A program made the position numbers and the translations under genes. Of a stretch of 64,000 nt of DNA, positions 23,214 through 26,075 are shown in pieces. This DNA is from Brevibacterium sp. ZH18 (GTDB lineage Bacteria > Actinomycetota > Actinomycetes > Actinomycetales > Brevibacteriaceae): the NCBI RefSeq assembly GCF_022748595.1, contig NZ_JALDSX010000016.1:1-64000 (forward strand), read 5' to 3'. Positions within the stretch are counted from its first letter, which is position 1; each line of letters opens with the position of its first letter. The notes beneath the pieces are model-generated. The model was given only the letters and a program-made list of their open reading frames with translations. It ran no database searches and was not told the origin of the DNA.

Positions 23214-24587
23214 TCAGGCCTTAGCGGCTTCCTTCTTCGGAGCCGGCTTCGAGTTGGCGGCCTCGACGAAGTTCTTGCGGGGAACATCGAGGTCGGCCAG
23301 CGGCATGGCGTCGCGACCGACAACGGCGTTGATGATCCAGTTGCCGAAGACCTTCACCTTGCGGTCAAGGGTCGGGATCGCGTAGCCGTGGTAGGCGCGG
23401 TGCATGAGCCAGGCGAGGAGTCCGCGGGCTTCGAAGTCGCCCATCTGCGAGACGCCCTTGTACAGTCCGAGACCAGCGACCGAGCCGATGGTCTTGTGGA
23501 AGTACTGCTTGAACTCGGTCTCTCCGCGCAGCGCGGCGAGAACGTTGGCAGCCAGCACCGGGGCCTGACGAACGGCGTGCTGTGCGTTAGGCACGCAGTA
23601 GCCGCCGACTCCGCCACCGGAGAGGTCGGGAACCGCAGCATTGTCGCCGGCGGCCCATGCGCCTTCGACGACACCGTCGTCACCTTCGACGCGCAGGTCA
23701 GCGCGAACAGTCACGCGACCGCGCTCATCGAGAGGCAGATCCGAGTCGACGAGGAGCGGGTTGGCCTTGACGCCTGCCGACCACACGATGGTGTCAGCGT
23801 CGAATTCTTCGCCGCTGGAGAGCTTGACGTGCTTGTCGGTGCAGTCCTGGAGGAACGTCTCGAGGTAGACGTCGATGCCACGCTCACGCATGTGCTCGAC
23901 GACCCAGCGAGCCTGGGCTTCGCCGACCTCGGGCATGACGCGACCCAGTGCCTCGACGAGGACGAAGCGGACATCGGCTTCGGTCAGCGTCTCGTACTGA
24001 GCCACTGCGGAGCGGACGACGTCTTCGAGTTCCGTGAGGAGTTCGATGCCGGCGAACCCGCCGCCGACGAAGACGAAGGTGAGAGCCTTGCGGCGTTCTT
24101 CGTCGTCTTCCATCAGCGAGGCATCGGCCAGGCGCGAGAGGAGGTGGTCGCGCAGGGCGACGGCTTCCTCGATGCGCTTGAGCGCGATCGCGTTCTCCTT
24201 GAGACCGGGGATCGGCAGCGCACGGGCGACCGAGCCGGAGGCCATGATGATGTGGTCGTAGTCGAGCTCGAATGCTTCGTCGTTCTCAGGCTCGACGGTG
24301 ACGAACTTGTCGGCGTGGTTGATCGACGTCACCTTCGCGGTGATGACCTCTGCACCGGAGAGGTTGCGACGCAGCGGCACGACAGCGTGACGCGGTTCGA
24401 TCGACCCGGCTGCCACCTCGGGGAGGAAGGGCAGGTAGGTCATGTAGGGGTTGGGGTCGACCACGGTCACGGTGGCTTCGCCACGGCCGAGGTTCTTCAG
24501 CAGATTCTGTGCGGTAACGAGACCAAGGTAGCCGCCACCAACGACGAGGATTCGAGGACGCAATTTTGAGTTTCTGATGAGTGCCAT
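23214..24587 (-). CDS. ndh: Type II NADH dehydrogenase (NAD(P)/FAD-dependent oxidoreductase)
   Basis: A 457-residue non-proton-pumping NADH:quinone oxidoreductase of the cytoplasmic membrane face. It has an FAD-binding GGGYLG at 17-22, an NADH-binding FVFVGGGFAGIE near 175, AAGDNAAVPD and AQHAVRQAPVLAANV in the C-terminal FAD region, and an amphipathic C-terminal segment. A TAAGAT -10 element ends 6 nt before the ATG, suggesting a leaderless message. A Rex-type operator overlaps the promoter, fitting control by the NADH/NAD+ ratio. Confidence 0.93.
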   Translation of the reverse strand: MALIRNSKLRPRILVVGGGYLGLVTAQNLLKNLGRGEATVTVVDPNPYMTYLPFLPEVAAGSIEPRHAVVPLRRNLSGAEVITAKVTSINHADKFVTVEPENDEAFELDYDHIIMASGSVARALPIPGLKENAIALKRIEEAVALRDHLLSRLADASLMEDDEERRKALTFVFVGGGFAGIELLTELEDVVRSAVAQYETLTEADVRFVLVEALGRVMPEVGEAQARWVVEHMRERGIDVYLETFLQDCTDKHVKLSSGEEFDADTIVWSAGVKANPLLVDSDLPLDERGRVTVRADLRVEGDDGVVEGAWAAGDNAAVPDLSGGGVGGYCVPNAQHAVRQAPVLAANVLAALRGETEFKQYFHKTIGSVAGLGLYKGVSQMGDFEARGLLAWLMHRAYHGYAIPTLDRKVKVFGNWIINAVVGRDAMPLADLDVPRKNFVEAANSKPAPKKEAAKA

Positions 24588-24593
24588 ATTCTC

Positions 24594-24622
24594 ATCTTAG
24601 GCCTTTGTGAAAACTTTCACTA
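24594..24622 (-). promoter_or_regulatory. ndh promoter with Rex-like operator
   Basis: On the minus strand TAAGAT (24599-24594) is a -10 six nt before the start codon. On the plus strand TTGTGAAAACTTTCACTA (24605-24622) matches the known Rex consensus TTGTGAA-N4-TTCACAA at all defined positions but one, with a perfect GTGAAA-AC-TTTCAC core. It covers the -35/spacer, where a repressor would block polymerase. Confidence 0.7.
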
Positions 24623-24722: not shown

Positions 24723-26075
24723 TCACCGTCGGCGACGGATGAAGGCCACTGCCGATGCCACCAACAGGATCACAGCGACCAGTCCCCCGATGCCGAGCAC
24801 CGCGAAGCCGAAGGTCGGTGTCGACTGCGACGCAACGACATCTTTCGGTGCAACGGCCTTCGGGCGGCCATCCTCGGCGGGGGCCGCAGTTTCGGTCTCG
24901 GCCGGGTCGGCTGCCGCGCGCCGGTGCATCTTCACCCAGTTCTCAAGGTCATCGCTGGCGCTGGGCACCGACTTCGGGACATCGGCCTTCATCGCGGCCT
25001 TCGGGTCGAGTCGACCCCAGCCGACGATCGGATCGGGTTTGCCCTTCTTGCTCCGGCCTTTGTGCCCGTCCACCTCCGCTGCGGACGAGAGCAGCTTGGC
25101 GCTGACCTCGTCGGCGCTGAGGTCGGGGTTCTCCGACCGGATGAGCGCTGCGACACCGGAGACGACGGGTGAGGCGAACGAGCAGCCCTGCCCTTCGGCG
25201 TATCCGCCCGAGTAGTACGGGATCGGAATGTCCGTTGCCGGGCCCATGAGGTCGACGGCAGTGCCAGGGGCCGTGGAGTTCTTCAGCACGCGCCCCTTCT
25301 TGTTGAGTCCACCGACGCCGATGACGCCGGGAACGGTCGACGGGGACCACGCCTGGGTCGCGCCCTGAGAGGCGTTGCCGACGCAGGCGACGATGACGAC
25401 GTCCTTCTTGTAGGCATAGGCGAAAGAGTCATCCCAGCTCTCGGGCCAGGCGGGATCGTCCCAACCCAAGGACATATTGATCACCTTGGCGCCGGAGTCG
25501 ACGGCCCAGCGGATCGCTTTGTTGGCCTGCTCCCGCGTCGACCCGGATTCCTTCGGACGGTCGGGGCCCAGCCACATCGAGGCCGAGAGGATCTTCGCAT
25601 CAGGGGCGACCCCTGTGGGCCCTGCACCGTCACCCTGCCCGGCGATGACACCGGCGACTGCGGTTCCGTGGTGGATCGTCGTCTCACCGCCGATCGGAGT
25701 CTTGCCGTCCTTGTCGAGACCGCTGAAGTCCTTGGCTTTGGTGACGACGCCCTTGAGGTCGTCGTGATCGGCATTGACGCCGGAGTCGATGACAGCGACC
25801 TTCACGCCTTTGCCCGTCGACTTCTTCCACAGGTCGTCGATGCCGTAGTCCTTGATGAACCACTGTCCGGGTCCGGGCTCGGGCGCAGCCATGGCAGGTT
25901 GGGTGGTTCCCACGACCAGACTCAGTGCGAGCGAGCCGACGAGTGCGAGCTTCGCCGCATGCTTGATCGACCGGCCTGCGGCTGTGCCGGAACGCGCCGA
26001 GGTGTGCGCGCGTGCGCGAGTCGTGGTGCGTCCCGCCAACCTGCGTGGCCGACCGAGCTGTTCGGCCGGGTTCAC
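24723..26075 (-). CDS. Secreted, membrane-anchored S8 subtilisin-like protease (mycosin-like)
   Basis: 450 residues. A long n-region and hydrophobic segment end in AMA-AP near residue 63 (signal peptide). The subtilase triad is visible as Asp97 (VIDSGVN), His136 (HHGTAVAG) and Ser299 (GCSFASPVVSG), with Asn234 as the oxyanion residue. A Pro/Ala-rich linker and a C-terminal membrane helix (about 420-445) ending in RRRR follow, the layout of type VII secretion mycosins. No ESX genes are nearby, so a general cell-surface protease is equally possible. GTG start in a 4-bp overlap with ppx. Confidence 0.9.
   Translation of the reverse strand: MNPAEQLGRPRRLAGRTTTRARAHTSARSGTAAGRSIKHAAKLALVGSLALSLVVGTTQPAMAAPEPGPGQWFIKDYGIDDLWKKSTGKGVKVAVIDSGVNADHDDLKGVVTKAKDFSGLDKDGKTPIGGETTIHHGTAVAGVIAGQGDGAGPTGVAPDAKILSASMWLGPDRPKESGSTREQANKAIRWAVDSGAKVINMSLGWDDPAWPESWDDSFAYAYKKDVVIVACVGNASQGATQAWSPSTVPGVIGVGGLNKKGRVLKNSTAPGTAVDLMGPATDIPIPYYSGGYAEGQGCSFASPVVSGVAALIRSENPDLSADEVSAKLLSSAAEVDGHKGRSKKGKPDPIVGWGRLDPKAAMKADVPKSVPSASDDLENWVKMHRRAAADPAETETAAPAEDGRPKAVAPKDVVASQSTPTFGFAVLGIGGLVAVILLVASAVAFIRRRR

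Follow-up and report, generated by a model that had tools for sequence, protein, structure and literature searches.

A predicted Rex operator at the promoter of the type II NADH dehydrogenase gene ndh in Brevibacterium

Results

The ndh gene and its promoter

The window, meaning the whole 64,000-nucleotide stretch of Brevibacterium sp. ZH18 DNA that was analyzed, carries the gene of a type II NADH dehydrogenase (NDH-2) on the minus strand, with a palindrome close to its start codon. The following features were assigned:

23214..24587, minus strand: ndh, type II NADH dehydrogenase of 457 aa (PF07992, E 9.3e-42; matches to PDB NDH-2 entries 5na1 and 4nwz)
24594..24599, minus strand: putative -10 element TAAGAT, 6 nt before the ndh start codon
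24605..24622, strand not assigned: predicted Rex operator (ROP), TTGTGAAAACTTTCACTA on the plus strand and TAGTGAAAGTTTTCACAA on the ndh strand
24617..24622, minus strand: putative -35 hexamer TAGTGA, placed by its distance from the -10 element (a weak match), inside the promoter-distal half-site

The ndh product is a two-dinucleotide-fold flavoprotein related to the solved NDH-2 structures (5na1, E 8.4e-36; 4nwz, E 1.4e-35), and YjlD (9pxk) was also matched. Two more distant Ndh-like matches were found in the genome, with 28% and 27% identity. A gene for a mycosin-like S8 serine protease (24723-26075) lies upstream of ndh in the same orientation; it scores 231 bits, under the 279-bit cut-off of the NCBIfam T7SS mycosin model. 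No Rfam match was found around ndh.

The ATG of ndh (24587-24585, minus strand) has no Shine-Dalgarno sequence, and TAAGAT stands 6 nt before it, as the earlier note had read. Along the ndh strand the order is TAGTGAAAGTTTTCACAA, 5 nt, TAAGAT, 6 nt and ATG, so that the start-codon-proximal edge of TTGTGAAAACTTTCACTA is 17 nt upstream of the ATG, and a 17-bp spacer separates the putative -35 and -10 elements. A generic promoter scan called no promoter here. The T, A, A and T at -12, -11, -8 and -7 from the ATG are 100% conserved among 51 aligned Brevibacterium promoters. The ndh transcript is probably leaderless, its start being predicted from this conserved sequence. If TAAGAT is the -10 element and transcription begins at the ATG, the palindrome would occupy -35 to -18, a geometry that fits overlap with the -35 element and the spacer.

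The palindrome and the Rex protein

Compared with the Rex operator consensus TTGTGAA-N4-TTCACAA, TTGTGAAAACTTTCACTA has one mismatch and contains the core GTGAAA-AC-TTTCAC. Re-reading the sequence bears out the earlier description of the box as the Rex consensus bar one base with a perfect core. The range then given (24594-24622) includes the operator, which properly spans 24605-24622; the remainder reaches the -10 element. Allowing up to three mismatches, the exact 18-mer occurs once in the window (0.00 expected), and the ndh box is the sole match to the Rex consensus in these 64 kb, where 0.64 are expected by chance. A consensus match at this threshold is therefore unremarkable by itself, and the case is made by the near-perfect match together with position and conservation. 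The stricter pattern WWGTGAANNNNTTCACWW (WWGTGAA-N4-TTCACWW) has a single match in the whole 3.8-Mb genome, the ndh box, and the reversed-pattern control has none.

The earlier note had made its reading depend on a rex gene in the genome, and one is indeed encoded there. Only one gene carries the Rex N-terminal domain over the cut-off (PF06971, E 1.3e-15; contig C49 of the genome). Its 231-aa product scores 241.1 bits against the equivalog model NF003992 (cut-off 226) and matches the PDB Rex structure 2dt5 with an E-value of 9e-39. Both the winged-helix N-domain PF06971 and the NAD(H)-binding Rossmann domain PF02629 are over their cut-offs, and the glycine motif GAGRLG is present. Judged by these features, the protein is an authentic Rex. 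The gene order at the locus is a glutaredoxin-like gene, rex and a hemA-hemC fusion. The last is one 825-aa frame downstream of rex (L037:1089-3566) that combines a GlutR domain with a porphobilinogen deaminase domain; frames of 819-834 aa begin at hemA in eight further Brevibacterium genomes.

Conservation and co-loss of box and rex

The upstream regions of all ndh genes were read in 57 Brevibacterium genomes, 52 with and five without rex. The box precedes ndh in 51 of the 52 rex-positive genomes and in none of the five rex-negative ones (G004, G009, G014, G040 and G069). In all five, the glutaredoxin gene and hemA are still adjacent and rex alone is gone, so an assembly gap is not the reason for its absence. 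Four of these five genomes are small, at 2.3-2.6 Mb. We aligned the 51 Brevibacterium promoters with 17-nt spacing, two of which appear to be the decayed loci L033 and L034 of rex-negative genomes. The majority identity per column is about 96% in the box, 52% in the 45 bases upstream of it and 79% in the 17 bases that separate the box from the ATG.

Furthermore, the scan was extended to ndh loci of named genomes from Micrococcaceae and Microbacteriaceae. A box lies just upstream of ndh in Arthrobacter, Pseudarthrobacter, Paenarthrobacter, Sinomonas and Glutamicibacter (for example, TAGTGAAGATTTTCACAA), and none was found upstream of ndh in Microbacteriaceae, Kocuria, Nesterenkonia and Tersicoccus. 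A search for rex in 47 of those genomes gave the same split as the box, with the exception of B. rongguiense. Outside Brevibacterium, 22 of 25 rex-positive relatives have the box. Over all 111 ndh loci (Brevibacterium and other Micrococcales), the box is found at 73 of the 77 rex-positive and at none of the 34 rex-negative loci. Four rex-positive genomes lack the box at ndh: B. rongguiense (L132 and L265, the same genome) and three from other families. In B. rongguiense no box is visible before serA (L174) either; Rex there must therefore have other targets or be relaxing.

The association between box and rex over the 111 loci gives a Fisher p of 1.8e-24, a statistic that takes no account of ancestry. 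The Ndh tree shows only about 6-7 changes; among six independent pairs, on average 4.0 agree, none oppose and 1.9 show no difference, and the sign test gives p of about 0.125. Phylogeny inflates the correlation: its direction is consistent, the independent events are few, and Microbacteriaceae are one large clade. The absence of the box from all 34 loci without rex, the loss of site with regulator, likewise represents few independent events.

A Rex site or another element

Proteins of the Crp type are the only serious rival regulators to Rex. If the box were a Crp/GlxR (cAMP receptor type) site, ndh would answer to carbon or energy status and not to NADH. The arms TGTGA...TCACA are common to both kinds of site, and TGTGA-AAACTT-TCACT differs from the actinobacterial Crp consensus TGTGA-N6-TCACA (PMC7739888) only in its final base; Crp-type proteins are encoded in the genome. 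Such helix-turn-helix proteins, however, are found in 57 of 57 Brevibacterium genomes, including the five that have lost rex and have no box, so the ndh box tracks rex and not crp in both presence and loss. The inner bases tell the same way. Among 73 orthologous boxes, which retain the Rex consensus pattern, position 7 is A in 70 and position 12 is T in all 73, while positions 8-10 vary; Crp, which leaves its N6 unconstrained, does not need these bases, and their near-invariance therefore fits the N4 spacing of Rex. Position 2 of the promoter-distal half-site is off consensus, being A or C in 69 of the 73 boxes. The location over the -35 element and spacer also suits a repressor, and we regard a Crp/GlxR site as very unlikely.

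Alternatively, the palindrome might be kept because it forms part of the promoter (-35 and spacer), or because an unrelated regulator uses it. Its promoter-distal half overlaps the -35 position, and at L033 and L034, the rex-negative loci of G004 and G040 that keep a half-site, the -35-side half TTCGTGAAA is retained and the other half is decayed. The other three rex-negative loci (L038, L044 and L131), however, retain a similar ndh -10 element without a palindrome. Unlike a core promoter element, the box stands at varied distances from the ATG across genomes (17-20 or 28-34 nt, either of which would allow it to overlap the -35 region), and its presence follows rex. This explanation is extremely improbable. 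Collectively, the rex gene in the genome, the co-occurrence and co-loss of box and rex, and the Crp-type proteins kept where the box is lost support the Rex-type operator proposed in the earlier note, and we hold with high confidence that the palindrome is an operator through which Rex controls ndh.

Other candidate sites in the genome

With up to two mismatches, four sites were found in the whole genome: the ndh box, one before serA, and two others, of which one falls within a coding region and the other precedes a TRAP transporter gene. The coding-region site was taken as chance. The TRAP transporter site TCGTGAGGGAGTTCACAA (L201:1995-2012), which stands about 30 nt before the permease gene and has a similar counterpart in one relative (L203), looks more Crp-like and was rejected as a Rex site. 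The serA site TTGTGAAGGCATTCACGA (L142; G000:C93:26167-26184) lies about 45 nt before the aligned serA start. Several species have a perfect serA box, but it is decayed in many rex-positive genomes and absent in rex-negative ones. In relatives it lies inside a longer inverted repeat, GAGAC...GTCTC, the outer arms of which persist where the inner box decays, and this repeat suggests another regulator as well. For these reasons a role of Rex at serA is possible but unproven. Its logic is not obvious, as an NADH-producing enzyme would be derepressed at high NADH.

No box that would point to autoregulation was found in an 8-kb stretch around rex. The cydA gene is present, but its 4.5-kb locus has no match at up to four mismatches. 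The complex I subunit NuoD was detected in none of the 57 Brevibacterium genomes and in 11 of 14 control genomes. The wider regulon that the earlier note suggested looking for (cydAB, nuo) thus did not appear; besides ndh, a good promoter site was found only at serA. It may be that Rex in Brevibacterium has been reduced to a nearly single-purpose switch, with the ndh operator, a variable serA site and none detected at cydA or rex, a reading that we advance tentatively and consider somewhat doubtful.

Discussion

In the proposed mechanism, a Rex dimer would occupy 24605-24622, over the -35 element and the spacer, and keep RNA polymerase off ndh as long as the ratio of NADH to NAD+ is low. Accumulating NADH would bind Rex, which would leave the DNA, and ndh would then be transcribed, probably without a leader. 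NDH-2 would pass electrons from NADH to the quinone pool, oxidizing NADH, and repression would return. NADH-dependent binding, repression and feedback at ndh are predicted by analogy with Rex systems already studied, and polymerase blockade, as with S. avermitilis Rex, is the simplest reading. Since NuoD is undetected in the genus, the NDH-2 encoded by ndh is probably the main entry of NADH into the respiratory chain.

Bacillus subtilis has a known Rex-ndh loop (Gyan et al. 2006, as cited in PMC6018154), so the feedback that the earlier note described as familiar from Gram-positive bacteria has a precedent. The two systems share a Rex operator at the type II NADH dehydrogenase gene and NADH feedback, which is predicted here. 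They differ in phylum and, by the same source, in regulon: in B. subtilis, the targets of Rex further include cydABCD, lctP-ldh and ywcJ (PMC6018154), whereas in Brevibacterium serA has the only other good promoter site and ndh is probably leaderless. In S. avermitilis, Rex represses and is weakened by NADH, and its DNase footprints (-39 to -17 at rex, -42 to -16 at nuoA1) match the position of the ndh box, -35 to -18 from the ATG (PMC5355995). The consensus TTGTGAANNNNTTCACAA, the operator over the -35 element and rex beside hemA are also alike (PMC5355995). Streptomyces Rex, however, controls the nuo, cyd, atp and rex-hem operons (PMC5355995), whereas in Brevibacterium NuoD was not detected, and neither rex nor cydA was found to be preceded by a box.

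The Rex-ndh circuit itself is known, and the Brevibacterium case is very probably a well-supported further instance of it. A search of the literature on Rex with ndh of Brevibacterium or Arthrobacter found no description. For some Micrococcineae, predicted Rex sites may already be present in RegPrecise.

Through the predicted operator, NADH sensing would directly control the main respiratory NADH oxidase in Brevibacterium and in many Micrococcaceae. This would extend a circuit known elsewhere to a group on which the literature searched holds no description. The co-loss of regulator and operator is clean, and the comparative support is strong. If the single-purpose reading were true, Brevibacterium would offer a natural example of a minimal NADH feedback circuit, acting on the main detected NADH:quinone entry enzyme besides the more distant Ndh-like proteins; several species, most of them with small genomes, would have lost this circuit together with its operator. 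The ndh switch may thus provide a simple system for NADH feedback in bacteria without detectable complex I.
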